NCBI GenBank assembly: GCA_023511615.1
Contig: JAIMBL010000025.1
Coordinates: forward strand, 1 to 34,374
Length of the DNA stretch: 34,374 bases
Source of the DNA: Leptolyngbyaceae cyanobacterium HOT.MB2.61
Lineage (GTDB): Bacteria > Cyanobacteriota > Cyanobacteriia > Leptolyngbyales > Leptolyngbyaceae
Direction of reading: 5' to 3'
Shown here one piece after another: positions 14,088 through 32,703 of the stretch. A program made the position numbers and the translations under genes. The stretch's first letter is position 1. Each line of letters begins with the position of its first letter. The notes beneath the pieces are model-generated. The model was not told the origin of the DNA. It searched no databases and saw nothing but the letters and a program-made list of their open reading frames with translations.

Positions 14088-15224
14088 ATGGGACCAGAGC
14101 AGGAACAACAGCCTCTTCAGGGGCATCGGACGCTGGCTGCCATTGTCTTTTCGGACGTGGTCAATTACAGCGGCAGGATGTCCCACAATGAGGAACATAC
14201 GCTTAAGTTAGTGCAGCGAGACCTGGAACTGATGACTCGCCTCTGCGAACAGTATGAGGGGCGAGTGCTGAAGTTTACTGGGGATGGACTGTTAATGTAC
14301 TTCACCAGTGCGGTTCAAGCGGTTGCCTGTGCTCTGGAAATTCAGAAGACGATCGCTGCAACCGCCGCCACCATGCCAGAAAGCGATCGCTTGCAGCACC
14401 GCATTGGCATTCATTTGGGGGATGTGTTCGTCAGTCCAACGGATGTGATGGGAGATGGGGTCAACATTGCTGCCCGCTTACAGTCAGAGGCGGAACCGGG
14501 TGGCATCTGCTTATCTCAAATTGTTTATGACGTGGTTAAAAAGCGTCTGGCGCTACAGGCAACCTACCTGGGGCCGCGAGAACTCAAGCACATTCAGGAA
14601 TCCATTCCCATCTATCAAATTGTGCTGGCGGCTCAGTCAAAGACCACCAATCTGAAGAGTGAACTAGAAAGAACTCTGACTGAATCGGCGGGGGTAGAGG
14701 TTGAGGACGTTTTGAAACAGGAACTTAACCCCGTCAGCATGGGGTTACCTCTTTTAAGCGAAGATGTTAAAAAAGCGCTGGAGCGTTTGCTGATAGAGGC
14801 AATTGGCCCAATCGCCTCGGTTCTGTTCCAGCAGGCCTTAAACCAGGCAGATAGCCGCCAGGATTTGATAGAGCGCTTGGTGGCTCAGTTGCCTGACCAT
14901 TTGCGGAGTTCTTTCCAATCCCACGCTAGCGCCATGTTGAAGGATAGCGGTGAGAGTCCTCAACCTCTCCCCCCTCCCCAGCCTGGAATCCGGGAGGAAG
15001 CTCCACCTGCGGCAGGTGAGGGGACGCCTGATCCTGCCTTTGTCAAACGCTGTGAGCTGGAGTTAACCAAAGCGATCGGGCCAATCGCCCCCCTGATTAT
15101 CCAGAAAACCCTGTCTCAGCAACCGGGGCTTTCTCGCCATCAACTGATTGAGGCACTAATCAGCCATTTGCCAAACCCTAAGATGAGTGAATCCTTTCGT
15201 CGCCATTTACTCACCCCGTCCTAG
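14088..15224 (+). CDS. Class III adenylate cyclase with C-terminal tandem repeats
   Basis: A 378-residue soluble protein. The class III cyclase domain is at the N terminus (about 14-185). Metal-binding Asp23 (FSDVVNYS) and Asp66 (FTGDGLL), the adenine-selecting pair Lys62 and Asp123, and the transition-state pair Asn126 and Arg130 (VNIAARL) are all present, so it should make cAMP from ATP. The second half has two copies of an approximately 55-residue helical module containing IGPIA (about residues 223-279 and 318-376), separated by a Pro-rich linker. This looks like a protein-interaction or regulatory tail. No upstream sensor domain is fused to it. Its end overlaps the convergent HAMP sensor gene by 18 bp. 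Confidence 0.88.
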   Translation: MGPEQEQQPLQGHRTLAAIVFSDVVNYSGRMSHNEEHTLKLVQRDLELMTRLCEQYEGRVLKFTGDGLLMYFTSAVQAVACALEIQKTIAATAATMPESDRLQHRIGIHLGDVFVSPTDVMGDGVNIAARLQSEAEPGGICLSQIVYDVVKKRLALQATYLGPRELKHIQESIPIYQIVLAAQSKTTNLKSELERTLTESAGVEVEDVLKQELNPVSMGLPLLSEDVKKALERLLIEAIGPIASVLFQQALNQADSRQDLIERLVAQLPDHLRSSFQSHASAMLKDSGESPQPLPPPQPGIREEAPPAAGEGTPDPAFVKRCELELTKAIGPIAPLIIQKTLSQQPGLSRHQLIEALISHLPNPKMSESFRRHLLTPS

Positions 15225-16106
15225 CATTTTCATCGCCATTATCAGGCTGGTCTTCATTCGGTTGAATGCTTCAGACAGGTTGCCAATCTCATCGTCCGAA
15301 GTCTGCTCAAAGCTGGCATCCATATTGCCCATACTGACTTCATTGGCCGCTTTTGCCATTTTGTTTAACGGGCGAATTACTGTCTGCCGCAGTAACCAGT
15401 TGATTACCAGCATAGCCAGCGCGAAGGCGATCGCCAGAATTCCTATAAACAGCAGGATGGCTCTACCGGCATTGTTGATGATGCCACTGGCAGGAACTGA
15501 GATAATTTGGGCCCCAACAATCTCATTCAACTTCCAACCAAAGCCGTTTTCTCTGCCATAACTGACTAACTGGCTCTTGGGCGCAGCTTCTGGAGTGCTG
15601 TGGCAACGTAAGCAGCTTTCTTTTTCGATTTTGATAGGGCGGGCGATATAGAACAGATCCCCTGCCGGAGAGGTGCGGTAACCTGTTAGTTCCTTGAGTT
15701 TTGCTTCCTGGCGAAACTTTTCAACTAGCTGCGATTCAAACGGATCTGCTTTGTCTCGCAGGTTGGTGGGGTTTAGTGTTGCTTCTTTGTAAAAGAAATC
15801 CGAATAATCTGCATTTTTACGCAGATCCTCCATCACTTCCCGTGCTGAGTAGCCGGGAGCCGTTTGGGGCAAAAACTGTTCCTCGGTTTCTAATCTGGGT
15901 GCCAGCTCTGGGTTGACCTGGGTCAACGTATATTGCCGGACCGAGAGCATGGTTTGCAGTAACAAATTTGCCTTTGCAGTTACTTCACGCTCGGCATTGT
16001 GGTTCAGGAGGGCTGAGAATGCACTACCGCTTAAAATAACTGCACCTAGAAAAACTGCGAGTAGTAGAATATTAAATTTTTGACTGAGTTTAAGGTTTTT
16101 GAGCAT
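15207..16106 (-). CDS. DUF3365 (Tll0287-like) heme-motif HAMP membrane sensor
   Basis: A 299-residue membrane protein with two spans (about 12-33 and 213-239) flanking a periplasmic domain of about 180 residues. The domain resembles DUF3365/Tll0287, a PAS-like fold with covalent heme, and carries CLRCH at 165-169 for c-type heme attachment. A HAMP domain (240-290; RPLNKMAKAANEVSMGNMDASF...DEIGNLSEAFNRM) follows, and the protein ends soon after. There is no kinase, cyclase or methyl-accepting output, so signalling must pass to a partner protein. The convergent adenylate cyclase, overlapping by 18 bp, is the obvious candidate. A PhnD-like lipoprotein is divergently encoded 83 bp away. Confidence 0.85.
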   Translation of the reverse strand: MLKNLKLSQKFNILLLAVFLGAVILSGSAFSALLNHNAEREVTAKANLLLQTMLSVRQYTLTQVNPELAPRLETEEQFLPQTAPGYSAREVMEDLRKNADYSDFFYKEATLNPTNLRDKADPFESQLVEKFRQEAKLKELTGYRTSPAGDLFYIARPIKIEKESCLRCHSTPEAAPKSQLVSYGRENGFGWKLNEIVGAQIISVPASGIINNAGRAILLFIGILAIAFALAMLVINWLLRQTVIRPLNKMAKAANEVSMGNMDASFEQTSDDEIGNLSEAFNRMKTSLIMAMKMLGRGE

Positions 16107-19427: not shown

Positions 19428-19835
19428 TTAATCTGTGAACTGAAACCGTGACAGATCCCTTACTGTTTCGACACTCAGGTTAAGTTCTCTGGCGATCGCC
19501 GCTTCCACCTGTGCAACGTCCGTTAGAGGAAATTCAAACTCCAACGTTTTCAAGGGGGAGTTGGTTGTTCTAACCATAATCTTTGTAAACTTCGCCTTTT
19601 GTTTCATCTCAACCTCGATCGCCAAAACCGATGCACTAAATTGAATTTTGGCAGGTTTATCCGTTTCCAGGTGGCGGTTGGGATTATAGGCGTAGCTTAA
19701 GAGATGCTGATTAACCACCTCCCCGCCAAACCAAAATAGGAGGGCAACGAAGGGCAGCGGTAGCCAAAATTCTAAACCCAGGCGTTTGCAATCTAGCCTT
19801 TTCAACAGAGACAAGTGAGGAACAGCCATAGCCAA
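19428..19835 (-). CDS. Small single-span membrane protein, copy 1 of a paralogous pair
   Basis: 135 residues of unknown function. One membrane segment (about 22-42) carries the motif GLEFWLPLPFVALLFW. The remainder is a small domain of beta strands and a helix: VLAIEVEMKQKAKFTKIMVRTTNS, LEFEFPL, then VEAAIARELNLSVETV. It is clearly homologous to the protein at 24788-25177, sharing GLEFWLPLP, the V-R/K-TTN strand, EFPL and VEAAIA-EL. In both places the gene is divergent from an RppA-like regulator gene. That arrangement suggests an accessory protein or modulator of the RppB-like sensor, with the C-terminal domain probably outside the membrane. The family is not known to me. Confidence 0.75.
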   Translation of the reverse strand: MAMAVPHLSLLKRLDCKRLGLEFWLPLPFVALLFWFGGEVVNQHLLSYAYNPNRHLETDKPAKIQFSASVLAIEVEMKQKAKFTKIMVRTTNSPLKTLEFEFPLTDVAQVEAAIARELNLSVETVRDLSRFQFTD

Positions 19836-19861
19836 AGTCGCGATTAGTGTGGTTAAACTTC

Positions 19862-19896
19862 TTGATTATTGAGAACTTTTTGCATTAGTATATAGC
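19862..19896 (+). promoter_or_regulatory. Candidate promoter for the first two-component pair
   Basis: Two overlapping options: TTGATT (19862-19867) with TAGTAT (19886-19891), or TTGAGA (19869-19874) with TATAGC (19891-19896). Both lie in the 135-bp divergent gap about 75-90 bp before the regulator ATG. Confidence 0.3.
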
Positions 19897-19970
19897 AATT
19901 TTCACCCGAATTTAGCTAACCTCTGTCGAGACTCGTTTCATCCTGAGTTTAAAGTTCTGAATTTAAGTTT

Positions 19971-20663
19971 ATGAAAATCTTAGTAGTAGAAGACGATCCA
20001 GAGTTGCTGGAGCCGCTGAATACGGCGCTATCCCAAGCTGGGCACGTGGTGGATGGAGTGGAGACCTCTGAAGTGGCGACCTGGCTATTGGAACACCAGG
20101 AGTATGATTTGTTGATTTTGGACTGGATGCTACCAACCGGGAGCGGAGTAAACCTCTGCCAACACTACCGCACGAGTGGCAAAACGGCCCCAGTCTTAAT
20201 GCTAACAGCTAGAGATAGCACTGAAGATAAGATTACTGGGCTAGATGCCGGAGCGGACGATTATCTGGTCAAACCAGTTAATATGCCAGAATTGCTGGCG
20301 CGGGTACGGGCGTTGGCGAGACGATCGCATCAGTGGCAAGGGTCGCTTTTCCGGTTGGGAGATTTGAGCCTGGATTTAGCGACATTAAGGGTAGAATATC
20401 GCGGACGAACGGTTGCTCTGTCTCACCGCGAGGCGCAATTGCTGGAATTGTTTTTGCGCCATCCCCGTCAAATTTTGACCCGTGATCAGATTGAGCAAGC
20501 GTTGTGGAATTGGGAATCAGAACCGGGACACAATGCGATTACAGTGCAAATTCGGCGGTTACGTCAGCGGTTGCAGTTGGTGGGGTGCGATCGCTGGATT
20601 GAAACAGTGTACGGAGCAGGCTATCGCTTCAGTGACCTCTCTCAGCCGTCGTCTCATGCCTAA
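19971..20663 (+). CDS. OmpR-family response regulator, RppA-like (copy 1)
   Basis: A 230-residue regulator. The receiver domain (1-115) has the acidic pair EDD, phosphoacceptor Asp51 in LLILDWMLP, the Thr of MLTARD and Lys in YLVKPV. The winged-helix DNA-binding domain (about 125-225) ends VQIRRLRQRLQLVGC...ETVYGAGYRF. The pair with the following kinase most resembles cyanobacterial RppA/RppB (NrsR/NrsS), which control metal transport genes. The stop overlaps the kinase ATG (8-bp overlap), so the two are translationally coupled. It probably controls the TonB receptor or its own divergent region. Confidence 0.93.
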   Translation: MKILVVEDDPELLEPLNTALSQAGHVVDGVETSEVATWLLEHQEYDLLILDWMLPTGSGVNLCQHYRTSGKTAPVLMLTARDSTEDKITGLDAGADDYLVKPVNMPELLARVRALARRSHQWQGSLFRLGDLSLDLATLRVEYRGRTVALSHREAQLLELFLRHPRQILTRDQIEQALWNWESEPGHNAITVQIRRLRQRLQLVGCDRWIETVYGAGYRFSDLSQPSSHA

Positions 20664-21945
20664 CCTGTTTCAGCAAAGCCGTCGTCATCTAGCTCAATGG
20701 TTTACCCTATCAATGGGCAGTATTTTGGTAGTGTTTGCCGCCAGTGTGTATGTGCTGGAAGTGCGCGGTCGCCTGCAAGCCTTTGATACTGACCTGGAGA
20801 GCAAAGTACGAGTCATGGCAGGGGGGATTCAGTATCGCTTACGACAAGGGCGGCTCCAAGCCCGGCTCGATCATGTGCCGATGCTGGGCAGTAATACGCT
20901 CCCTCTCAACAGCAAGATTGTCTATGCTCGCTGGTATGACGATAAGGGCAGACTGGCTCGGTTTGTGAAACAGCAGCCCTCGAATCGGCAGATAACAACC
21001 CTGGGATTTAAAACTATTTCCCTTCCCGTTTCCCAAAAGAACCACCAACCGCTGCTTCTACGACAAGTGACGCTTCCAGTTTGGCAAGAGGGCGTTTTAA
21101 TTGGCTATCTGCAAATTGCAGTGCCCCTGACGCCTTTGCAGCAAACCCTGACTCAGTTGCGACTGCTGCTAACGTTGGGAGTTCCTGCCGCTTTGGGGCT
21201 AATTGCGCTGACGGGTTGGTGGTTAGGCGGGGTGGCTATGCAGCCGCTGCAACAGTCATATAAGCGGTTACAGCACTTTACTACTAATGCGTCTCATGAA
21301 CTCCGCACCCCGATCGCCAAGATATTAGGACAGGCGCAGCTTATGCTGATGCCGAACTATGAGGAGGAGTCAATTTCCCGGCAGCGAGTCGAAAAGATTG
21401 TCACAATTACGAAGGGGATGAGTCGTTTAGTGGGTGATTTGTTGTTTCTGGCTCGTCATGAAGGCCCCCTCAATCCAGAGAATCTAGAACGAATTGATCT
21501 GACTAGACTCCTCCAAGAATTAACCTGGGATGCGGCGGCACTGGCGCAAAACAAAGCCATTAAGGTGAACTGCGATCTGCCAGACCAAGCGGTGATGGTT
21601 GCTGCAGAAACCGATTTGCTGTGTCAGGCGATCGCGAACCTGACTAATAATGCGATCAAATATTCGCCACCAGGTAGCTGGGTGAAGGTGCGGTTGATGA
21701 CTCAAGGGCGATCGGCGTTGATTCACGTTGAGGATAATGGATCGGGCATTCCGGCAGAAGAGTTGCCCTACATTTTTGATCGGTTTTATCGGGTGAACAC
21801 CACTCGATCGCACTCAGAAGGCTTTGGGTTAGGGCTGGCGATCGTGCAGCAAATTGCTCAAGCTCATGGTGGAACTATTACTGTCTATAGCGAGATCGGC
21901 AAAGGCTCCTGTTTTGAATTGGTACTACCCCGCCAATTACTATAA
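20656..21945 (+). CDS. Sensor histidine kinase, RppB-like (copy 1)
   Basis: A 429-residue membrane kinase. The start is the ATG at 20656 (MPNLFQQSRRHLAQWFTLSMGS); the frame extends upstream only inside the regulator gene. Membrane span 1 is near residues 15-37 and span 2 near 166-190 (LLLTLGVPAALGLIALTGWWLGG), enclosing an approximately 125-residue periplasmic sensor with the conserved VPMLGSN and YARWYDDKGRL. HisKA has His214 in NASHELRTPI. The ATPase domain has ANLTNNAIKYS, VEDNGSGIP, FDRFYR and GFGLGLAIVQQIA. All kinase boxes are intact. The ligand is unknown; metal or redox state is plausible from the relatives and neighbours. Confidence 0.93.
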   Translation: MPNLFQQSRRHLAQWFTLSMGSILVVFAASVYVLEVRGRLQAFDTDLESKVRVMAGGIQYRLRQGRLQARLDHVPMLGSNTLPLNSKIVYARWYDDKGRLARFVKQQPSNRQITTLGFKTISLPVSQKNHQPLLLRQVTLPVWQEGVLIGYLQIAVPLTPLQQTLTQLRLLLTLGVPAALGLIALTGWWLGGVAMQPLQQSYKRLQHFTTNASHELRTPIAKILGQAQLMLMPNYEEESISRQRVEKIVTITKGMSRLVGDLLFLARHEGPLNPENLERIDLTRLLQELTWDAAALAQNKAIKVNCDLPDQAVMVAAETDLLCQAIANLTNNAIKYSPPGSWVKVRLMTQGRSALIHVEDNGSGIPAEELPYIFDRFYRVNTTRSHSEGFGLGLAIVQQIAQAHGGTITVYSEIGKGSCFELVLPRQLL

Positions 21946-22099
21946 CCAACTGCTAATGCCGATTACTTTCAAATGGACTGTTATTTTTTAGTTATATTTG
22001 CCTGCGACACTTTCTAGGTGATCATTAGCAGAAGTTTGGCGGTAGAGAGTTGATGGATTGAAGCAAATAATCTGAATCCATTACACAATTTCTCAAGTT

Positions 22100-22114
22100 T
22101 GATAATTGTTGTCA
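22100..22114 (+). promoter_or_regulatory. Fur-box-like site upstream of the TonB-dependent receptor
   Basis: TGATAAT-T-GTTGTCA matches the 7-1-7 Fur pattern TGATAAT-n-ATTATCA at 12 of 14 positions. It lies 79 bp before the receptor start codon, a normal operator position for iron-repressed genes. Confidence 0.5.
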
Positions 22115-22193
22115 GACTTAGTGATTTTGGCTGATTTTTAAGAGCACGAGAACACTGTTAACCCAGATTTATTTCCGATCAGGAGATAGGACA

Positions 22194-24764
22194 GTGAGTA
22201 TAAGGACATTACTTTCGACATTGAGTTTAACTAGTTGTTTAGTTGGAACTTTATCCAGTGCTGGTTACGCGGAAATGATTCAACTCTCATCTTTCACATC
22301 TGATCCTACTCGAACATCATCCAAGACGGTAAAAGAGTGGATGGCACAGATAGAAGCATCTGACCCTAAACAACCTCAAACAGAGATTGTTTCGATTACC
22401 AATATTCGGCTCGATCGCACTGATGCAGGGCTACAAGTGATTCTGGAAACACCGGAAGGGACAACGTTACAGTCCTCCACTCGTGAGGTGGATAATTCTC
22501 TAATTATCGAGATTCCCAACGCGGTATTGTCGCTCTCATTGGGTAAGGAGTTTCGGACTGAAAAGCCGCTAGACGGAATTGCGAGTATTGTAGTGACTCA
22601 GTTAGAGACTAACCGAGTACAGATTACGATCGCAGGTACAAAAGCGGCTCCACTGGCGCAGGTTGTATCGAGCGGGAATGGGTTGCAACTGAGCTTGACT
22701 CCCGACGATGACGCACCGGAAGAAGAGATCACCGTTACAGGAGCAGGCGATCGACAAAATCTGCTGCCTCAAACGGGAATTGCCCGTGAAGAGTTCTCCC
22801 GCCGGAACAACCTGCAACTGGGAGACATTCTGCAACGATTACCAGGGGTGGTGGGGGGTGGTCCTCCAGGCGAAAATCGAGAAGTGCGTCTGCGCGGGTT
22901 GGACAAGGAATTTACCCGGATTCAGATTGATGGAGTCACGCTGCCCGATGGTGGTGAAAAACGCGAGTTTCAAGTAAATCGCTTACCCTCGTTTTTAGTA
23001 GATGAAGTCAAAATTATCCGCAATCCAACGGCGGAATATGAAAGTGATGGGATTGCTGGACGGGTGAGCGTCAAAAAAACGACGATTCCCCAAGACTTTG
23101 TATTGCAAGGGCGGGCAGCACTTGGTGGCTATGATCGGCTTGGTAGCAATATTCAAAACTATCAAATTGGGATTGGCGATCGCCCGTCTCCCAATTTTGG
23201 TTATCTGGGAGCCTTCAGCTATCTCAAAAACCCAATTGAAATTGACAAATTCAAGCTGTTTTCTACCGGTAAATCAGAACTGGAAGGCGAAACCACGCGA
23301 CTGGAGTACTACGACACCCTGCTGGATATTGCCGCATTTTATGACCGGGGTGAAATTCACCTGAAACCCCTATTGCTGATTTTCAATATTGACAAGAACA
23401 AATTCAAACTGTTTCAGGAACCTCGGAGGCCAGCAACCCGCGAAGAGGAGCGAGAAATCGAACGCCGCTATACCTATGGTGCGGGATTAACCCATCAGCA
23501 CCGCTTTAACGGTGGCATTCGACTCGATACTGATCTGGGCTATTACGTTGCCACAGAAGACAAAGACAAAACCAGATTGGCTTTTGAGCAAGACCGGCGA
23601 GGCATCTTTCAGTTTAAAAGAAGTTCGCCTGAAGTGGAACAGAAGCGAGATGGAGTGTTTAACCTGGCAACTGCGCTAACTATTCCCGTGCAAGCAGGAC
23701 TGCGCCATGAAATTAAGCTGGGTGGGGCAATGCGACTGCGCGATCGCAACCGCGATAAGGAAAGATTTCAAATTGACGATAGAGGTCGCAGAACGCGAAC
23801 CACTGAAGCTAAAGATAACTACGAACTGAAGGAAAACTACTTTGCTGGATTCATTCAAGACCAAATTTGGCTCAGCGATCGCTTTAGCATTTTACCCGGC
23901 GTGCGGATTGAAACCGTCAGCCTGACCAGTCGCGATGGCACCAGCCGCGAAGCTGAAAAAACGGTGACGGATGTCAATCCATCACTGCATTTACTGTATC
24001 GGGCAACGGATACGATTAGCTTCCGTGCGGCCATTTCGCGGGGGTTGAATCGTCCTAAGTTTGATGAATTGTCTCCCTTTGAACAGGAAAAAGGCGATCG
24101 CATCACCATTGGTAGCCCTGATCTTGACCCAGCGCGATCGCTCAATCTGGATGTTGGCGCTGAGTATGCCGACCAACACTTCTTAGTCGGTGTAAATTTC
24201 TTTTACCGCGATATCAAAGGAGTGATTGAAGAAGTAGATACGGGTCTGGTTCGCAATCGCAAACGCATTTTTCAGGTACAAAATGTCGGCAACGGTTGGA
24301 CCAGTGGCTTTGAACTGGAACAACGGCTGAATCTGGGCTTTACCGGTGTCGAGGGTTTGAAAGGCTTGACTTTGTGGGCAAACCAGACCTTTTTAGATTC
24401 TGAACTGACCGATGCTTCAGGACGAGAGCGGCGGTTCAAAGATCAACCCAGGTTTGTAGCAAATTTGGGTTTGGATTATACCTATGAACCCTGGGGAACG
24501 ACCTTTACTATTGCCTATGGCTACATATCCAGCCGAGACGAATTCCGAGCTGATGGTAGCACCAAAACCATTGAACCTGCTTCTACCCTTAACCTGGCAG
24601 TGCGCCAGCGGATTGGGGCAAATGTCTCGCTCTTTTTTGAAGCAACCGATCTCCTAGGAGGGGATAAAAAAGTCGAGCGAGAAGTCTTTAGAGATGGTTC
24701 CACCAGCCTCAAAGAGGAAAGCGTGGGGACGCGCTATTTAATCGGTGTAAGCTGGAATTTCTAG
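22194..24764 (+). CDS. AMIN-domain TonB-dependent outer-membrane receptor
   Basis: An 856-residue receptor. The start is GTG at 22194, supported by AGGAG 8 bases upstream. A signal peptide (cleavage near AGYA-E, residue 26) is followed by an AMIN domain (about 63-170), a TonB-box-like EEEITVTG (about 175-182), a plug domain (about 190-305; GDILQRLPGVVGG, REVRLRGLDKEFTRIQIDGV, PTAEYESDGIAG) and a 22-strand-type barrel ending RYLIGVSWNF with a terminal Phe. AMIN plus TonB receptor is the usual cyanobacterial layout for siderophore-type receptors. It should take up a ferric chelate or another large metal complex using TonB energy. It sits alone between two sensor modules and has a Fur-like site upstream. 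Confidence 0.93.
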   Translation: MSIRTLLSTLSLTSCLVGTLSSAGYAEMIQLSSFTSDPTRTSSKTVKEWMAQIEASDPKQPQTEIVSITNIRLDRTDAGLQVILETPEGTTLQSSTREVDNSLIIEIPNAVLSLSLGKEFRTEKPLDGIASIVVTQLETNRVQITIAGTKAAPLAQVVSSGNGLQLSLTPDDDAPEEEITVTGAGDRQNLLPQTGIAREEFSRRNNLQLGDILQRLPGVVGGGPPGENREVRLRGLDKEFTRIQIDGVTLPDGGEKREFQVNRLPSFLVDEVKIIRNPTAEYESDGIAGRVSVKKTTIPQDFVLQGRAALGGYDRLGSNIQNYQIGIGDRPSPNFGYLGAFSYLKNPIEIDKFKLFSTGKSELEGETTRLEYYDTLLDIAAFYDRGEIHLKPLLLIFNIDKNKFKLFQEPRRPATREEEREIERRYTYGAGLTHQHRFNGGIRLDTDLGYYVATEDKDKTRLAFEQDRRGIFQFKRSSPEVEQKRDGVFNLATALTIPVQAGLRHEIKLGGAMRLRDRNRDKERFQIDDRGRRTRTTEAKDNYELKENYFAGFIQDQIWLSDRFSILPGVRIETVSLTSRDGTSREAEKTVTDVNPSLHLLYRATDTISFRAAISRGLNRPKFDELSPFEQEKGDRITIGSPDLDPARSLNLDVGAEYADQHFLVGVNFFYRDIKGVIEEVDTGLVRNRKRIFQVQNVGNGWTSGFELEQRLNLGFTGVEGLKGLTLWANQTFLDSELTDASGRERRFKDQPRFVANLGLDYTYEPWGTTFTIAYGYISSRDEFRADGSTKTIEPASTLNLAVRQRIGANVSLFFEATDLLGGDKKVEREVFRDGSTSLKEESVGTRYLIGVSWNF

Positions 24765-24787
24765 AGGCAGGGCCATGCTTATATAGA

Positions 24788-25177
24788 TCATCGCTTGACT
24801 TCATATTGAATGCGGGATTGCACCTGAGTGCGGGACACCCCCAATTCATGGGCGATCGCCGCTTCCACCTGACCAAACTCCAGCAGTGGAAACTCATACT
24901 CCAGCTTTTTGAGGGCTGGGTTCGTGGTTTTTACCACCACCTTAGAAAATCCTCTTTTGCGATGAATTTCTGCCTCGATTGCCACAATCGATACCGGAAT
25001 CTGAGTCTGCATCTGCTGACTCGCTTGCAATCCAATATCCGTTGTTTGAGGTCGCCCCATTGCCCACTCGGCGACTGAATGGCTACCAACCCAAAACATC
25101 AATCCCAGAATTGGCAACGGTAGCCAAAATTCTAGACCTAAACTTGCCAACCCTTTGAACCAGGGAGAAAACCGCAT
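24788..25177 (-). CDS. Small single-span membrane protein, copy 2 of a paralogous pair
   Basis: 129 residues, homologous to the product of 19428-19835. The membrane segment (about 13-35) contains GLEFWLPLPILGLMFW. The C-terminal domain has VSIVAIEAEIHRKRGFSKVV, KTTNP, LEYEFPL and VEAAIAHELGVSRTQV. The gene is convergent with the TonB receptor (23 bp apart) and divergent from the second response regulator (73-bp gap). The pairing of such a gene with an RppA/RppB-like operon twice in one locus supports a functional link. No known domain was recognised. The charged C terminus (SRIQYEVKR) is shorter than in copy 1. Confidence 0.78.
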   Translation of the reverse strand: MRFSPWFKGLASLGLEFWLPLPILGLMFWVGSHSVAEWAMGRPQTTDIGLQASQQMQTQIPVSIVAIEAEIHRKRGFSKVVVKTTNPALKKLEYEFPLLEFGQVEAAIAHELGVSRTQVQSRIQYEVKR

Positions 25178-25212
25178 TATCTTAGTCCTATTGCCCCGTC
25201 ATTGTTATACCA

Positions 25213-25240
25213 TTTTGGGTTTTGGGTTGCCGATTTTGGA
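25213..25240. repeat. Heptamer repeat TTTTGGG before the second regulator
   Basis: TTTTGGG-TTTTGGG-TTGCCGA-TTTTGGA in 7-base register. This is a short tandem heptamer tract of cyanobacterial type, within the divergent promoter region. Confidence 0.6.
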
Positions 25241-25250
25241 TTGAGAACCG

Positions 25251-25979
25251 ATGAGAATTTTGTTGGTAGAAGATGATCGCGATTTGCTAGAGCCGTTACA
25301 AGAAGCACTCGATGCCAATGGGCATGGGGTTGATGCCGTCGGTAATGGCGCGATCGCCCAATGGTTAATTACCCAAAAAGATTACGATCTGCTGATTCTG
25401 GACTGGATGCTGCCGGAAGTCGATGGTCTTCGTCTCTGCCAGTACTACCGCCAATCTGGTAAAGGTTCACCCGTGTTGATGTTGACTTCAAAAGATACCA
25501 CGTTGGATAAAATCACTGGTTTGGATGCGGGAGCCGATGATTACCTGGTCAAACCCGTAGACATGCTAGAGTTTCTGGCACGGGTGCGGGCACTGGGGCG
25601 GCGCTCTCCCCTCTGGCGTGGAGATATTCTCAGCTTGGCTGATCTGACCCTGAACTTGAATCACCTGACTGTAGAGCGGGCAAACAAAACAGTCGAACTA
25701 TCTGGGCGGGAATTTCAACTGATGGAATATTTCATGCGCCATCCTCAACAAGTCCTTACTCGCATCCAGATTGAGGAAACTATTTGGACCTGGGGAGAAG
25801 AACCCGAAAGCAATGCGATTACGACCTTGGTGCGGCGGCTGCGTCAACGCCTGCGAGGGTTGAATGCAGATAGCTGGATTGAAACGGTCTATGGCATTGG
25901 CTATCGGCTACGTCCGCCTACTGGTTCTGATACTCCAGCAAGCTTGGAGTCTAACCCCAATGTTCAACCCCCTATTTAG
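25251..25979 (+). CDS. OmpR-family response regulator, RppA-like (copy 2)
   Basis: A 242-residue paralogue of the regulator at 19971. The receiver has EDD, Asp51 in LLILDWMLPEVDG, LTSKD and YLVKPVDM. The winged-helix domain ends VRRLRQRLRGLNADSWIETVYGIGYRL, then a 20-residue extra tail. It overlaps the following kinase gene by 20 bp. The two copies differ in the recognition helix (TTLVRRLRQRL against TVQIRRLRQRL), so their DNA targets may be similar but not necessarily the same. Confidence 0.93.
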   Translation: MRILLVEDDRDLLEPLQEALDANGHGVDAVGNGAIAQWLITQKDYDLLILDWMLPEVDGLRLCQYYRQSGKGSPVLMLTSKDTTLDKITGLDAGADDYLVKPVDMLEFLARVRALGRRSPLWRGDILSLADLTLNLNHLTVERANKTVELSGREFQLMEYFMRHPQQVLTRIQIEETIWTWGEEPESNAITTLVRRLRQRLRGLNADSWIETVYGIGYRLRPPTGSDTPASLESNPNVQPPI

Positions 25980-27273
25980 CCATAGTCGTCGCAACCTGGC
26001 ACGCTGGTTTACGGGATCGATGGGAAGCATCCTGGTGGTGTTTGCTGCCACCTTGTTTTTTCTGGAAACACAAGAACAGATGCGAGCATTCGATCAGGAA
26101 TTATTGAACAAGAGCCGCACAATGGCAGCAGCGGTCAAATATCGTTTGCATGAGGGCCGGTGGCGGGTGGAACTGAGTGATGTGCCGGTGTTGGGCAGCA
26201 ATTCGATTCCCTATGACAATGAGGTGCAATATGTCCGCTGGTATGACCGTCAGGGACAACTAGTTCGGTTTGTGGGGGCCTTACCGCCCGAACAACTGGC
26301 GATCGCCCCTGGCTTTGTCACCCTATCCACACCCCAATTGCTCCGCCAGATTACTCTGCCGGTATTTCAGAATCAGGACGCGATCGGCTACCTGCAAGTA
26401 GCGGTTCCCCTGACTCCGGTGCGAACCAATCTCCGACAAATACGGTTATTTCTGTCGGTAGGAGTGCCTCTGTCGCTGGCTGTCATTGGTGTTGCAGGCT
26501 GGTTATTAGGTGGCTTTGCGATGCAACCGATTCAAGCTGCTTACGAACGGTTACAACGCTTTACTGCCGATGCCTCCCATGAATTAAGGTCACCCCTGGC
26601 TGCCCTCCTGAGCAACATTCAGATTGGTATTGTCAAACCGGCTGCCAATTTAGAAACCCAGGAACGACGACTGCAAAAACTGGTAGAGATTACCAAATCC
26701 ATGACGGTGCTGGTCAACAACCTGTTGCTGCTGGCACGTTATGAAGGATCGCTGCCAGCCAGCACCTTGAAAGTGGTTGACCTGGTGCCATTGCTCAAAG
26801 ATATGGCTGGAACATTTGAAACTGAAGCCACCCAGCATCACTTACGCTTTGGCTGTACCCTGCCCGACCATCCCCTGACTGTAATGGCAGATGCAGATTT
26901 GCTACAGCGGGCGATCGCCAATCTCCTCAACAACGCGCTGAAATATACACCGCCTGGAGGCACCATCGAACTGCGACTAACCGCAACGAATCAGCAAGCA
27001 CTCATTCAAGTAAAAGATACCGGGATTGGCATTCCAGAAGCTTTTTTGCAATTCATTTTTGAGCGATTTTACCGGGTTGATCAAGTGCGCACCCCCGATC
27101 ACCAGCGCCCTAAAAAATCCGGTGGGTTTGGCTTGGGCTTGGCGATCGCCCAGCAAATTATCCAGGCTCACGGCGGCAAAATTCACGTTGCCAGTACGGA
27201 AGGTAGCGGCTCCTGTTTCACCATCGAGCTACCCCTCATCAACCATCGCTTTCGTCTCCTGCGCTCCTCTTGA
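25960..27273 (+). CDS. Sensor histidine kinase, RppB-like (copy 2)
   Basis: A 437-residue membrane kinase starting at the ATG at 25960 (MFNPLFSHSRRNLARWFTGS), within the end of the regulator gene. Two membrane spans (about 15-37 and 160-184) enclose a periplasmic sensor with VPVLGSNSIPYDN and YVRWYDRQGQLVRF, close to copy 1. His207 lies in DASHELRSPL, followed by ANLLNNALKYT, VKDTGIGIP, FERFYR and GFGLGLAIAQQII. The periplasmic loop is shorter than in copy 1 because the segment after the WYDRQGQ strand is compressed, so the two sensors may differ in ligand affinity. Confidence 0.93.
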   Translation: MFNPLFSHSRRNLARWFTGSMGSILVVFAATLFFLETQEQMRAFDQELLNKSRTMAAAVKYRLHEGRWRVELSDVPVLGSNSIPYDNEVQYVRWYDRQGQLVRFVGALPPEQLAIAPGFVTLSTPQLLRQITLPVFQNQDAIGYLQVAVPLTPVRTNLRQIRLFLSVGVPLSLAVIGVAGWLLGGFAMQPIQAAYERLQRFTADASHELRSPLAALLSNIQIGIVKPAANLETQERRLQKLVEITKSMTVLVNNLLLLARYEGSLPASTLKVVDLVPLLKDMAGTFETEATQHHLRFGCTLPDHPLTVMADADLLQRAIANLLNNALKYTPPGGTIELRLTATNQQALIQVKDTGIGIPEAFLQFIFERFYRVDQVRTPDHQRPKKSGGFGLGLAIAQQIIQAHGGKIHVASTEGSGSCFTIELPLINHRFRLLRSS

Positions 27274-27332: not shown

Positions 27333-27734
27333 ATGATGAAACAATCCATTCTGCTGGGGTTGTCACTGGCAACGGTTGTCCCCCTGATACAGCCATCTGA
27401 CCTGGCTCACGCCCAAATAAAAATCCGGGATTTGCAACAAATTGCACCGGGTATTTCAGTTTCTGGCAGAGTGACCAGTGTGGTCGGGAATAGTTTTGTG
27501 CTGGACGATGGCAGCGGGCAGCTCATTGTAGATGCGGGACCGCACTGGTGGCAACCCATTGATCTGACGGTGGGTGAGCAACTAACGGTCACAGGCAAGG
27601 TGGGGCGATCAGGCAAGCTAGATGCCTTTTCCATCACCCGCTCAAATGGCTCCGTGATTAATATCCGTCCGGCTGCTGGTTCACCCCCTTGGGCTGGTGG
27701 ACCGAATTGGAGAGGTCCTCGTCCAAGGCGATGA
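27333..27734 (+). CDS. Secreted OB-fold protein (YgiW/BOF-like)
   Basis: A 133-residue protein with a signal peptide (cleavage near AHAQ, residue 28). The mature part is a single OB-fold: ISVSGRVTSVVGNSFVLDDG, QLIVDAG, LTVGEQLTVTGKV, LDAFSITRSNG. It ends in a Gly/Pro/Arg-rich tail (RGPRPRR). The layout resembles the YgiW/YdeI family of periplasmic stress proteins, one of which sits beside qseBC in E. coli. Here it follows a two-component pair by 59 bp. GGAG precedes the start; a second ATG follows at once. It may bind a small ligand or modulate the kinase. Confidence 0.65.
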   Translation: MMKQSILLGLSLATVVPLIQPSDLAHAQIKIRDLQQIAPGISVSGRVTSVVGNSFVLDDGSGQLIVDAGPHWWQPIDLTVGEQLTVTGKVGRSGKLDAFSITRSNGSVINIRPAAGSPPWAGGPNWRGPRPRR

Positions 27735-27773: not shown

Positions 27774-28493
27774 ATGTCTATTCAACCAATCAAACACATA
27801 AAAGTATCGGCATTGTTGCTTGCTATTGCCTCGGTAGCCGCTCCAATGCTGATGTTTCACCAATCTTCTAAAGCCACTCCACTGGCTCCTCCCCTGCACT
27901 TGGCGCAAACTCCGCCCCGCCCACTTTCCCCTGGCGTAGCACCGTCGTTAGATGCTCACTATAGCCACAAAGCGACGCGAGACATCCAACGAGCGCGGGA
28001 GAAAGCTTTTTCCTTCCAATATCTCCTCAGTCAGGCCAGTTCTCAGCCTGCTGCTGAGTTCGCCAGCCTGGCACAACAAACCCTCGGTCAGGCAGAAAGC
28101 AGCTATGCCGCTGGTCGCTTTTTTACTGCCGAAAAGCAAGCAAAAGCTGCTAATGCACTCTATGAAGCTGCCAAAACACTTTGTGAAGGCAAATTAGGCT
28201 ATGTTGCGGGTCCACGTGGGCCAAAAGCACCGGGCAAACGCTGGTATGAAGCGCCTTACCAGGCACAAGAACGGATTGCTCGCACAGAAACTGCCATGAA
28301 CTATTACCAGGTGAATAACCCAACTGCAACGAATCTGTTGCAACGTGCCAGACAACTGGCAGGAGCGACCGCGCCAACAAATGTAGTACAAACTCCAGCC
28401 GCTTACAATTTGGCAACGCTGGCAAACTACCGGGCCTCCAAACACCTGGCAAATGCTGCCCTGCATTTGGTGGAAGCTCAAAGAGGTTTTTAA
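27774..28493 (+). CDS. Secreted helical protein of unknown function
   Basis: 239 residues, not recognised. A signal peptide (hydrophobic core about 10-28) leads to a Pro-rich stretch and then an all-helical domain rich in Ala, Gln and Tyr: SHKATRDIQRAREKAFSFQY, LAQQTLGQAESSYAAGRFFT, AKAANALYEAAKTL, ERIARTETAMNYYQ and a C-terminal ANAALHLVEAQRGF. The pattern suggests a helical bundle of periplasmic location with many aromatic residues. There is one Cys and there are several His, but no clear metal motif. Its stop overlaps the next ATG by one base, so it is translationally coupled to the ABC membrane-domain gene and may work with it. Confidence 0.7.
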   Translation: MSIQPIKHIKVSALLLAIASVAAPMLMFHQSSKATPLAPPLHLAQTPPRPLSPGVAPSLDAHYSHKATRDIQRAREKAFSFQYLLSQASSQPAAEFASLAQQTLGQAESSYAAGRFFTAEKQAKAANALYEAAKTLCEGKLGYVAGPRGPKAPGKRWYEAPYQAQERIARTETAMNYYQVNNPTATNLLQRARQLAGATAPTNVVQTPAAYNLATLANYRASKHLANAALHLVEAQRGF

Positions 28494-29461
28494 TGGCAAG
28501 CCACTCGAATCACCCTAACCCTATGCAGAACTTCCGAAAATCAATCCTGTGGGACATGTTTCAGGTGCTGTTGACCTATCCTGGCTGGTTTGCGGCTTCT
28601 GTTCTTTCAACAGTTGTGGTGGTAAGTTTGGAACCCAGTCTTGCCTGGTTAAGCAAAACAGTCATCGATGACCTGAAAAAGGGAAAGGGCGATTTAGACA
28701 CTTCCCTGCTGCACTATGGCATGGTTTTTGGCGGGTTGCTGCTGGGGTTAGGCATCCTCAAATTTGGCGACAAGCTAATCGACAAAATCTATGAGCTAAA
28801 GTTGGTGATTTGCCTACAACGCCTGTATTTGCAACGACGGCCTGAAGATCGAGGGGTTGAAGATATTTCCCGCGTTATTTTTGACTGTGAAAAGTCGAAA
28901 GCTGGGTTGGATATTATCCATAAAGATGCCGGAAGGATTATTTTTCAGACGATCGCCGTCGTTGTCTGGCAGTTTTCTCTGGCACCCCAATGGTTGCCCG
29001 CTCTATTAATTGCGGTTGTCCCCCCCATTTTTGTGGGATTTATGTTTGGACCACTTATTCAACGCGCCAGCCTCAACCGACTAAGAGCCCAGCAGGCGAT
29101 CGCCTCCTCCACAGGTACCCATCAGCGAGCCAATCTGTTTAGTAGTCAGGAGATATTTTTCCGCCAAACCCTGCGCTTGGAAATCTTTAAATCTAGCACT
29201 GAAATTCTCATGGGTTTAGTCACCTGGTTTGGGCTTTTGATGCTGGTTTTAGTTAGTTCTGTCTTTCATCTGGGTTTGCTGCCAAAACAAATTGAAGCCG
29301 GAGATTTAGCATTGTTTGCTGTCAATCTCAATCTCCTCTCCAAACCATTGGGCGAAATTGTCAAAGTTTACAACAAAGGACGCGAAGCTTACCCGGCGCT
29401 GCTGCGAGTGTTGCGCCCAGAAACCCAGAGCTCTGACTTTTTGAAAAAGTCGGAAATCTAA
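28493..29461 (+). CDS. ABC-exporter transmembrane domain without an ATPase
   Basis: A 322-residue membrane protein with about five to six hydrophobic segments (for example WFAASVLSTVVVVSLEPSLA, YGMVFGGLLLGLGILKFG, WLPALLIAVVPPIFVGFMFG, LVTWFGLLMLVLVSSVF). The organisation, including the GDLALFAVNLNLLSKPLGEIVK segment before the end, follows the membrane half of type-I ABC exporters. The nucleotide-binding domain (Walker A, LSGGQ) is absent; the protein ends at about the point where it would begin. It could be a degenerate exporter, a stand-alone partner, or half of a pair with the full exporter at 30826. ATG overlaps the TAA of the preceding gene by one base. Confidence 0.7.
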   Translation: MASHSNHPNPMQNFRKSILWDMFQVLLTYPGWFAASVLSTVVVVSLEPSLAWLSKTVIDDLKKGKGDLDTSLLHYGMVFGGLLLGLGILKFGDKLIDKIYELKLVICLQRLYLQRRPEDRGVEDISRVIFDCEKSKAGLDIIHKDAGRIIFQTIAVVVWQFSLAPQWLPALLIAVVPPIFVGFMFGPLIQRASLNRLRAQQAIASSTGTHQRANLFSSQEIFFRQTLRLEIFKSSTEILMGLVTWFGLLMLVLVSSVFHLGLLPKQIEAGDLALFAVNLNLLSKPLGEIVKVYNKGREAYPALLRVLRPETQSSDFLKKSEI

Positions 29462-29856: not shown

Positions 29857-30786
29857 ATGGATTGGAGTCCAGCAATTCCAACTTTTTTAATTACCCTGCG
29901 TGAAGGGGTTGAGGCAGCACTTGTTGTTGGCATTGTGCTGGCGTGTTTGCGTCAGGCACGGCGCCCTCAGTTAATTCCCGCTGTCTATTTCGGCATCGCC
30001 ACTGGGTTGGTTGCCAGTATCGGGGTGGGAGGGTTGCTCCTGCAAGGATTGCATCAGGTAGAAAATGTCAAATCTCCTGATATGGTCGTGATGCGACAGC
30101 TTTTGGAAACAGGCCTGGGAGTATTGGCGATTGCCATGTTGAGTTGGATACTGATCTGGATGACGCGGCAAGCGCGATCGCTCAAGGCAGAGATTGAAGG
30201 CTCGGTGCAAGTAGCGGTTACGGGTAATGGGGTTGCTGCCTGGGGCATTTTTAGCTTGATCGCGACTGCCGTGTTGCGCGAAGGATTTGAAACGGTGTTG
30301 TTTCTAGCGGTGCAGTTTCAGACGAACTGGACTCCTATAGTGGGAGCGATCGCAGGCATTATGGCAGCCGCGATCATCGGTGTCTTGTTATTCAAGTGGG
30401 GCATCAAAATTAACCTCAAACAGTTCTTCCAGATAATGGGCACGCTGCTGTTATTGATTGTGTCTGGGTTAGTGGTTTCGGCTCTACGACATCTAGATGC
30501 AGCGGCGATCGCCTTTATTCAATTGCATCCCCAGGCTGCCCCATTGTGCTGGTCAGCCGCTCCCACCTGTCTGCTCGGTTCCCTAGTGTGGGATGCCCAT
30601 GCCGTCCTACCCGATCAAGAATTTCCTGGCATTATTCTCAAAACCTTGTTTGGGTATCGGGAGAGGCTTTATCTGGTACAAGCGATCGGGTATTTCCTAT
30701 TTCTTGGTCTAGTCGGCAGGCTTTATTTCCGCAGTTTTAATCCTCCGAAAGCAACTTCGCCAACGCCCGATCTCGCCTTGAAATAA
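29857..30786 (+). CDS. FTR1-family high-affinity iron permease
   Basis: A 309-residue inner-membrane permease with about seven spans. The two iron-coordinating motifs of the FTR1/EfeU family are both present: REGVE at 15-19 in the first helix and REGFE at 141-145 in the fourth. It imports ferric or oxidised iron, usually with a ferroxidase partner (Fet3 in yeast, EfeO/EfeB in bacteria). No EfeO or EfeB is present nearby, so a different partner is needed. Candidates are the PepSY-TM protein and the secreted proteins in this run. 31 bp separate it from the Lys/His-rich gene. Confidence 0.92.
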   Translation: MDWSPAIPTFLITLREGVEAALVVGIVLACLRQARRPQLIPAVYFGIATGLVASIGVGGLLLQGLHQVENVKSPDMVVMRQLLETGLGVLAIAMLSWILIWMTRQARSLKAEIEGSVQVAVTGNGVAAWGIFSLIATAVLREGFETVLFLAVQFQTNWTPIVGAIAGIMAAAIIGVLLFKWGIKINLKQFFQIMGTLLLLIVSGLVVSALRHLDAAAIAFIQLHPQAAPLCWSAAPTCLLGSLVWDAHAVLPDQEFPGIILKTLFGYRERLYLVQAIGYFLFLGLVGRLYFRSFNPPKATSPTPDLALK

Positions 30787-30825: not shown

Positions 30826-32703
30826 ATGCACGCTGAGATGATCCGCAAGATTGCCAAAAGCGATCCTACCCAACTCGAAACAGAAACGCCGATCTTACAA
30901 CTCTACGGACGCTTGTTAGCCTACGTCTGGCAGTATAAATGGGCAATGGCAGGCGGCATCGCCAGTATTTTTGCCCTGTCATTTCTACAAATTCTGATTC
31001 CCCAAATCACACGTTTCGTCATTGATGTAATCATTCCGGCGCGGCGATTTGATTGGCTGCCCTGGGTGGGAATTTGCATTATTGGGATTGCAGTGTTGTT
31101 GGGATTACTCAACTTTGTGCGAAATTACTTGATGGCAGTTGTGGGACAGCGCACAGTATTTACCCTGCGACGCGATTTGTATGAGCATTTGCAAGCGCTG
31201 TCATTGAGCTACTTTGAAAATCAGCGCACCGGTGCTTTAATAGGTCGCCTGACGCAAGATGTGGATTCATTACAGGGACTCATTACCTCGGAGCTAGCCG
31301 AACTGGGTGCAGAAATTGTGACGTTCTTCGTCATCGTTACCTACCTGTTCTACGCTGATTGGAAATTGACACTACTGATTCTCGCGACGCTGCCCGTGAT
31401 GGTGCTGTTGACTCATTTATTTGGAACTCGAATGCGCCCTGCCTATCGGGAGGTGCGGGAACAGGGAGCCGAGTTAAACAATCACCTGCAAGATACGATC
31501 GCTAATATCAAAATTATCAAAGCCTGTGCGAATGAAGCATTTGAGAGCGGGCGGTTTGCGGAACGCAATCAGCAAAATATGACAGTGAATATTCGGGTCA
31601 TTCAACTCTGGTCAGCGTTTTCGCCCGTGATTGATTTTATGAATCATCTGGGGCACGTGATTGTGCTGGTGTATGGTTCCTGGGAAGTGATGCAGGATGC
31701 TTTAACGGTGGGTGAACTAGCGGCATTCCTCGCCTACTTAAATCAAGTCAATCAACCCGCCAAAAAATTTAGCCGCATCATCCATACCATTCAAAAAGCC
31801 GGAGCCGCCTGTGAGCGCATCTTTGAAACGTTGGACGAGCAACCCGATGTGCAAGAAAAGCCAGATGCGATCGCTCTGCCTCCCATCCAGGGACATCTAC
31901 AATTCGACGCAGTTGATTTTGCCTATCAAGCCGATCGCCCCGTGTTACAGCAATTTTCGCTGGATATTCAACCGGGAATGACGGTTGCCTTAGTGGGTCC
32001 ATCAGGGGCTGGCAAAAGCACGATCGCCAATTTAGCCGTTCGCTTTTATGATCCCCAAGCAGGCTGTATTCGACTGGATGGTCAGGATTTACGCGATGTC
32101 ACGTTTCAATCGCTCCGCAGCCAGATTGGGGTTGTCTCCCAAGAAACCTTGCTACTGTACGGTACAGTGCGCGACAACATTACCTACGGCAAACCCGATG
32201 CCGATGAGTCTGCCCTAATTGCCGCTGCCCAAGCTGCCTATGCCCATAATTTCATTCTGGAGTTGCCCCAGGGATACGACACGGTCATTGGTGAACGCGG
32301 CGTTAAACTATCTGGCGGACAGCGCCAACGACTGGCGATCGCTCGTGCCCTGATCAAAGATCCCAAACTACTGTTGCTGGATGAAGCGACCTCCTCGCTA
32401 GACACAGAATCAGAACATTTGATTCAACAAGCACTCGCGGATCTGATGCGCGATCGCACCTGCCTCGTTATTGCCCATCGCCTGTCCACGATTCAAACCG
32501 CTGATTTGATTGTCGTGATTAACAATGGCACCATCCTTGAAAGGGGAACTCACACCGATCTCCTGGCACGCGGACAGTTTTACGCTCACCTTTATCAGTT
32601 ACAGTTTCCTAAAAATCTACCCACTGACTTTGATCCGGCTGTGGTGTTGCTCTCAAAAGTCGGTTCAGCTATACCTTCTCAGACAACCCTCACTAATAAT
32701 TGA
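30826..32703 (+). CDS. Type-I ABC exporter (fused permease and ATPase)
   Basis: A 625-residue half-transporter acting as a dimer. The membrane domain (about 30-330) has six spans and the FENQRTGALIGRLTQDVDS coupling region. The ATPase domain (about 365-605) has Walker A GPSGAGKST near 391, the signature LSGGQRQR near 495, Walker B LLLLDEATS near 515, and the H-loop AHR. It resembles lipid, peptide and siderophore exporters of the MsbA type. Beside a TonB receptor and an iron permease, export of a chelator is a reasonable guess. The Ser/Thr/Asn-rich end (IPSQTTLTNN) is non-conserved. A second in-frame ATG is at residue 5. Confidence 0.92.
   Translation: MHAEMIRKIAKSDPTQLETETPILQLYGRLLAYVWQYKWAMAGGIASIFALSFLQILIPQITRFVIDVIIPARRFDWLPWVGICIIGIAVLLGLLNFVRNYLMAVVGQRTVFTLRRDLYEHLQALSLSYFENQRTGALIGRLTQDVDSLQGLITSELAELGAEIVTFFVIVTYLFYADWKLTLLILATLPVMVLLTHLFGTRMRPAYREVREQGAELNNHLQDTIANIKIIKACANEAFESGRFAERNQQNMTVNIRVIQLWSAFSPVIDFMNHLGHVIVLVYGSWEVMQDALTVGELAAFLAYLNQVNQPAKKFSRIIHTIQKAGAACERIFETLDEQPDVQEKPDAIALPPIQGHLQFDAVDFAYQADRPVLQQFSLDIQPGMTVALVGPSGAGKSTIANLAVRFYDPQAGCIRLDGQDLRDVTFQSLRSQIGVVSQETLLLYGTVRDNITYGKPDADESALIAAAQAAYAHNFILELPQGYDTVIGERGVKLSGGQRQRLAIARALIKDPKLLLLDEATSSLDTESEHLIQQALADLMRDRTCLVIAHRLSTIQTADLIVVINNGTILERGTHTDLLARGQFYAHLYQLQFPKNLPTDFDPAVVLLSKVGSAIPSQTTLTNN

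Follow-up and report, generated by a model that had tools for sequence, protein, structure and literature searches.

Contig JAIMBL010000025.1 of Leptolyngbyaceae cyanobacterium HOT.MB2.61 (assembly GCA_023511615.1), analysed over positions 1 to 34,374 of the forward strand (hereafter the window), carries two copies of a three-gene signalling module. In each copy, the gene of a small membrane protein (SP) is divergent from the genes of an OmpR-family response regulator (RR) and a histidine kinase (HK), and the gene of a TonB-dependent receptor lies between the copies. The features are as follows.

19428-19829, minus strand: SP1, small single-span membrane protein of module 1, 133 amino acids, ATG start
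19830-19970: divergent promoter region of module 1
19971-20663, plus strand: RR1, OmpR-family response regulator, RppA-like (258 bits against a cut-off of 250)
20656-21945, plus strand: HK1, histidine kinase with a predicted extracytoplasmic PAS/Cache-like sensor, overlapping RR1 by 8 bp
22194-24764, plus strand: TonB-dependent receptor with an N-terminal AMIN domain, GTG start after AGGAG
24788-25177, minus strand: SP2, small single-span membrane protein of module 2, 129 amino acids
25178-25250: divergent promoter region of module 2, 73 bp
25251-25979, plus strand: RR2, OmpR-family response regulator (248.3 bits against the RppA cut-off of 250)
25960-27273, plus strand: HK2, histidine kinase, overlapping RR2 by 20 bp

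This arrangement, including the receptor in between and the overlaps of 8 and 20 bp, had been described in the first-pass annotation, and the open reading frames and their reading frames confirm it. The homology of all three proteins between the copies also holds: the identity is 44% over 115 residues for SP (E 8e-33), 62% for RR and 48% for HK. The Pfam domains Response_reg, Trans_reg_C, HisKA and HATPase_c score above their gathering thresholds in the regulators and kinases, which identifies these proteins as OmpR-family two-component systems. In the receptor, plug and beta-barrel domains follow from the same search, together with AMIN.

The small membrane protein and the kinase sensor

SP has no significant match in Pfam or NCBIfam, and the scattered weak helix-turn-helix matches to its C-terminal helices are at noise level. 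Against the PDB, the best sequence match (E 0.014 over 20 residues) is not meaningful, and the fold search gave no match with E below 0.001, the best Z score of 6.0 being to ribosomal and other unrelated chains. SP is absent from the plasmid collection that we searched. We found no description of this small protein in the literature, subscription papers being mostly beyond the reach of the search. SP is probably a new family of accessory proteins in an otherwise familiar type of signalling system.

When 31 members are aligned, hydropathy and charge reveal a single hydrophobic helix near the N-terminus, which bears the motif GLEFWLPLP and is preceded in most members by a net positive charge. 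Since the N-terminal side is positive, the remainder of the protein should face the periplasm according to the positive-inside rule, and the part C-terminal of the helix probably lies outside the cytoplasm. In the AlphaFold model, the helix (residues 20-39) is connected by a low-confidence linker to a beta-beta-beta-alpha-alpha-beta domain at residues 64-128, with block confidence (pLDDT) values of about 78-89. The alignment contains no conserved Cys or His residue, and we rejected metal binding by SP on this ground.

Two kinds of SP variants were observed. In four related loci, whose kinases form one clade, SP has two outer domains in tandem behind one transmembrane helix:

L061, 7560-8231: tandem-domain SP
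L062, 7586-8209: tandem-domain SP
L063, 6328-6942: tandem-domain SP
L064, 7760-8431: tandem-domain SP

In two species, the SP beside the RR-HK pair is shortened to about 56 residues with the stop at a common position (L160, about 6841-6975; L161, about 6672-6806). These versions keep the transmembrane region and lack the outer domain, and each could be either a pseudogene or a transmembrane-only modulator.

The N-terminal part of HK2 was modelled with HK1 as a row in the alignment, and consists of a long helix, several strands and a second helix. Among solved structures, WalK in a WalK-YycH model matches it best (E 1.6e-5); the sensors of sporulation kinase D, CusS and WalK come next, and those of PhoQ lower down. 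As modelled, the kinase sensor is of the common extracytoplasmic PAS/Cache-like design.

The small protein as a candidate kinase partner

How closely is SP tied to the kinase? We first consider the gene order in a phylum sample of 386 cyanobacterial genomes, which contains 30 SP loci when the tandem-domain proteins are counted once. An intact RR of the same type adjoins SP in 25 of the 30 loci, and SP is divergent from it in 23, which is the CpxP-like arrangement. In L061 and L062, SP occupies the opposite strand between RR and HK. Only a C-terminal kinase fragment stands beside SP in two loci (L053 and L055), SP is far from the RR-HK pair in two more (G308 and G070), and one locus is at a contig end. 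Linkage also holds in all six extra loci of named genomes, which include Microseira wollei NIES-4236 and Pantanalinema. The possibility that the small protein occurs mostly away from such kinases, which the first-pass annotation had raised against its own proposal, is thus not borne out. The two fragment loci belong to different families: in L053 (7792-8724) and L055 (73-955), SP and the C-terminal part of HK remain, while RR is missing together with the N-terminal half of HK.

The co-occurrence extends beyond linkage. The SP profile matches 22 of the 386 genomes, the same 22 as the single-sequence search, and a kinase sensor profile made from the N-terminal 195 residues of HK matches 21. Both are present in 20 genomes, spread over nine families; two genomes have SP only, one has the kinase only, and 363 have neither (Fisher p 3.6e-30, the genomes not being independent). 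In both SP-only genomes, a fragment of the kinase is left next to SP. Within the family to which the window belongs, SP is found in 24 of 42 genomes and the kinase in the same 24, while the other 18 have neither and none is discordant. Moreover, six genomes of genus g158 have SP and the kinase on separate contigs, and a seventh, G418, has neither; the two genes are also apart in G403 and G404. This retention of both genes without linkage argues for a joint function.

We then compared evolutionary distances by the mirror-tree approach over 24 modules, using SP, the sensor-plus-transmembrane part of HK, the catalytic part of HK, and RR. The SP distances correlate with those of the HK sensor-plus-transmembrane part (Pearson 0.71-0.73), as compared to 0.24-0.38 for the catalytic part and 0.37-0.46 for RR. 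The sensor and catalytic distances of HK itself correlate only at 0.23-0.33. Given the HK catalytic part and RR, the partial correlation between SP and the HK sensor is 0.65, and it stays near 0.5 without the fast clade. Because RR separates SP from the kinase in the gene order, this correlation does not reflect mere physical proximity.

The proposal of a third component is thereby supported on three sides, by the linkage, by the co-occurrence even when unlinked, and by the co-evolution with the kinase sensor part. We propose that the module is probably a three-component unit, in which SP is a membrane-anchored, obligate co-sensor or modulator acting on the periplasmic and transmembrane part of the kinase. 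HK would sense through its periplasmic PAS/Cache-like domain and would phosphorylate RR. SP, held by its one N-terminal helix with the small beta-beta-beta-alpha-alpha-beta domain outside the cytoplasm, would dock on the periplasmic domain and the transmembrane helices of HK, and would thereby set or gate the kinase output. Both the physical contact and the control of kinase output are what we infer from these patterns. A co-sensor role is somewhat favoured over that of a dispensable damper, as genomes hardly ever retain the kinase in the absence of SP.

Several observations weigh against this proposal. G352 has the kinase without SP, and no SP-like open reading frame was seen upstream of its RR. 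The source of the kinase profile was a set of SP-linked kinases, kinases weaker than its cut-off would escape listing, and some of the family matches (G404, G409:C18) are near this cut-off, at about 1e-34. Part of the mirror-tree signal comes from a single diverged clade, and fast rates common to both proteins may add to the correlation between SP and the HK sensor. In addition, SP is cut to about 56 residues in the two species described above.

A stronger version of the three-component proposal holds that SP is the real signal receptor and that the kinase cannot sense without it. The modules would then be obligate three-component sensors, with the tandem-domain and transmembrane-only SPs as receptor variants. 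We regard this version as possible but less likely than not.

A different explanation is that SP is only an output, namely an envelope or membrane protein switched on by RR from the common promoter, with no effect on the kinase. The divergent promoter with its conserved site and the persistence of SP in G203 and G326 despite a decayed kinase agree with it. However, one would not expect the kinase to require a protein that is only an output, and yet the kinase occurs without SP only once in the 386 genomes and never in the 42. SP also tracks the sensor half of HK and not RR, the would-be promoter binder, and both SP and HK are kept even where they are unlinked. We consequently judge the output-only explanation unlikely.

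It is still harder to maintain that the kinase, the regulator and SP form a selfish or co-inherited cassette spread by transfer, their association being due to linkage and not to a joint function: the distribution over families is patchy and the neighbourhood in one relative is rich in transposase-like genes, but unlinked SP and HK are co-retained in G308, G070, six g158 genomes, G403 and G404, and SP co-evolves with only one half of HK, though RR sits between the two genes.

The modules had been named RppA/RppB (NrsRS) systems, and the best NCBIfam matches are in fact RppA and RppB. HK1 and HK2, however, score 293.4 and 303.4 bits against the curated RppB cut-off of 400 (NF041735), while the true RppB of the same genome, on contig 16, scores 642.9 bits. 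Against RppA (NF041734, cut-off 250 bits), RR1 is above and RR2 just below. In a maximum-likelihood tree of 33 SP-type kinases and 17 RppB and RppB-like outgroup kinases, the 33 form one clade outside the RppB rows with support of 100/99, and a hidden Markov model search found SP at none of the 17 outgroup loci. On the sub-cut-off scores, the separate clade, and the true RppB elsewhere in the genome, we classify the system as a sister kind to RppA/RppB and not as a member. The name must accordingly be dropped, and it is very improbable that the modules are RppA/RppB systems for nickel or redox.

Paralogous copies, iron-transport genes and promoters

The two copies, which the first-pass annotation suggested might set different thresholds or respond to different metals, match at the DNA level only in short blocks of 12-86 bp, which indicates that they are old. 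In the kinase tree, HK1 groups with the kinases of L044, L046 and L048 (100/99), and HK2 with those of L004 and L007 (100/100). SP1 is nearest to the SPs of L044, L046 and L048 and of the family loci L133, L137 and L148. We rejected a recent tandem duplication, since each copy has its own orthologues and the DNA identity is limited to short blocks. Both module types are present in the relatives G410, G388 and G396.

Downstream of module 2, the window contains a run of genes, of which the following were assigned.

27333-27734, plus strand: small OB-fold (NirD/YgiW/YdeI-like) secreted protein, 3′ of HK2 (weak match, below the curated cut-off)
28493-29461: ABC-exporter-like membrane protein, 322 amino acids, half-size, no ATPase match, preceding FTR1
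29857-30786, plus strand: FTR1-family iron permease
30826-32703: complete ABC exporter, 625 amino acids
32716-33930, plus strand: PepSY-TM membrane protein, the last of the run

The order on the same strand after HK2 is the OB-fold gene, a 239-residue secreted protein without family, the half-size ABC membrane protein, a small open reading frame, FTR1, the ABC exporter and the PepSY-TM protein. The PepSY-TM protein may be linked to iron, in view of its neighbour genes.

Similar genes accompany the modules of the relatives. FTR1 and TonB-dependent receptors are near the module in L044 and L048, and TonB-dependent receptors in L046. L007 has OB-fold, ABC, FTR1 and exporter genes nearby, and L004 has the OB-fold and 239-residue genes; the OB-fold gene is in the same place at L004, L007 and L134. 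A TonB-dependent receptor adjoins SP2 in L134 and follows HK1 in L148. In G410, which belongs to the same genus, the order from the receptor to the PepSY-TM protein is as in the window. From these comparisons of gene content, the module pair is of long standing and consists of diverged paralogues placed among iron-transport genes, and the two modules of the window probably control iron-acquisition genes. Such a function does not extend to the whole SP family. A single metal or iron function was rejected, as the neighbours elsewhere are diverse and many other members of the family lie in surroundings without an iron link; the 62 neighbours scanned include four short-chain dehydrogenases, three amino-acid permeases, two MgtE and two HlyD-type genes.

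Further observations concern the neighbouring genes. L044 contains two copies of the 322-residue ABC-exporter-like membrane protein. In the complete genome G410 (L133, 10183-16593), transposase-like genes separate HK1 from the receptor region, as judged by eye from the sequences.

Next, we examined the promoters. A 26-bp motif, TnAAATCnnACnnnTGnAAGACGTTT, is present in ten divergent promoters, mostly 48-56 bp upstream of the RR start, with a score of 270 as compared to 132-153 in shuffled sets. It recurs upstream of RR in loci outside the building set, namely L094 and L095 and also L135, L142, L145, L146, L147 and L150; in five of these latter six, its distance from RR is about 50 bp. In the two divergent promoters of the window, the motif was not found. 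The motif is a candidate RR site for autoregulation. The motif about 50 bp upstream of RR (L005, L006, L039, L040 and others) resembles the first codons of RR itself, ATGAAAATCTTACTGGTAGAAGACGAT, and the motif search therefore also matches RR starts.

The promoter of module 1 and those of its three closest relatives share a footprint, TATTGAGAA....tGCATTAt, at about 19868-19890 of the window. It bears a weak resemblance to a Fur box; a Fur-box scan of the window gave nothing clearly above the shuffled expectation, including the score of this footprint alone.

Elsewhere in the window, an adenylate/guanylate cyclase-like gene (14088-15224, plus strand) and a Tll0287-HAMP membrane sensor gene (15207-16106, minus strand) overlap tail to tail by 18 bp.

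Comparison with known systems

The regulator and kinase of RppA/RppB (NrsRS, Hik30-Rre33) of Synechocystis are related to those of the window. NrsRS controls its own genes as well as an adjacent operon for metal transport (PMC4284471). The window's modules differ from it in having iron genes and not nickel genes nearby, and no SP was found at the RppB loci examined.

Small membrane proteins that alter the output of sensor kinases are known in MgrB-PhoQ, SafA-PhoQ and MzrA-EnvZ (PMC8404706, PMC8534201, PMC2727453). The layout of such modulators, with a single N-terminal transmembrane helix, a short N-terminal side and an outer domain, is found in SP, both in the 31 members and in the model. MgrB consists of 47 residues and needs its transmembrane region to bind PhoQ, whereas a folded outer domain is predicted for SP. 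MzrA, which CpxRA controls, acts on EnvZ, while SP stays with one kinase clade. We found no sequence relation of SP to MgrB, SafA or MzrA.

YycH and YycI (WalH and WalI) are accessory proteins in the membrane which bind a sensor kinase of the PAS type, and WalK is itself under the control of membrane partners (PMC5013275, PMC8534201). The likeness to YycH/YycI-WalRK lies in the HK sensor model, which matches WalK best. SP1 and SP2 have no YycH/YycI sequence-family match, nor is there one among the families listed for the 31 SPs, and no YycH/YycI chain is among the matches listed in the SP fold searches, the best of which (Z 6.0) are to unrelated proteins. SP is also much smaller than YycH and YycI, and its gene is divergent and not co-operonic.

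The gene arrangement resembles that of CpxP-CpxRA of E. coli and V. cholerae, where a regulator-kinase pair of the OmpR type likewise has the gene of a small extracytoplasmic protein divergent from it. The periplasmic sensor domain of the kinase is the presumed site of action of CpxP (PMC6737893). Unlike CpxP, SP is membrane-anchored. No CpxP/Spy (LTXXQ repeat) match was found for SP1 or SP2, and the 25 weak families that were listed most often for the 31 SPs (Pfam E up to 1) do not include it. Furthermore, CpxP is described as non-essential for most inducing cues, while SP and its kinase are nearly always kept together. On the most economical reading, SP is an accessory membrane subunit that would work with the sensor and membrane part of the kinase in the manner of CpxP, MgrB, MzrA or YycHI, but it belongs to an unrelated family.

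Most known accessory membrane proteins of sensor kinases come from enteric and Gram-positive bacteria. In the present case, an entire clade of kinases in cyanobacteria seems to rely on a partner that had no annotation and was revealed by reciprocal presence and absence. The paired, unlinked, duplicated, truncated and lost copies provide a ready test set for how such partners set kinase output, and in the window's lineage they point to a regulator of the uptake of iron, a limiting nutrient for these organisms.

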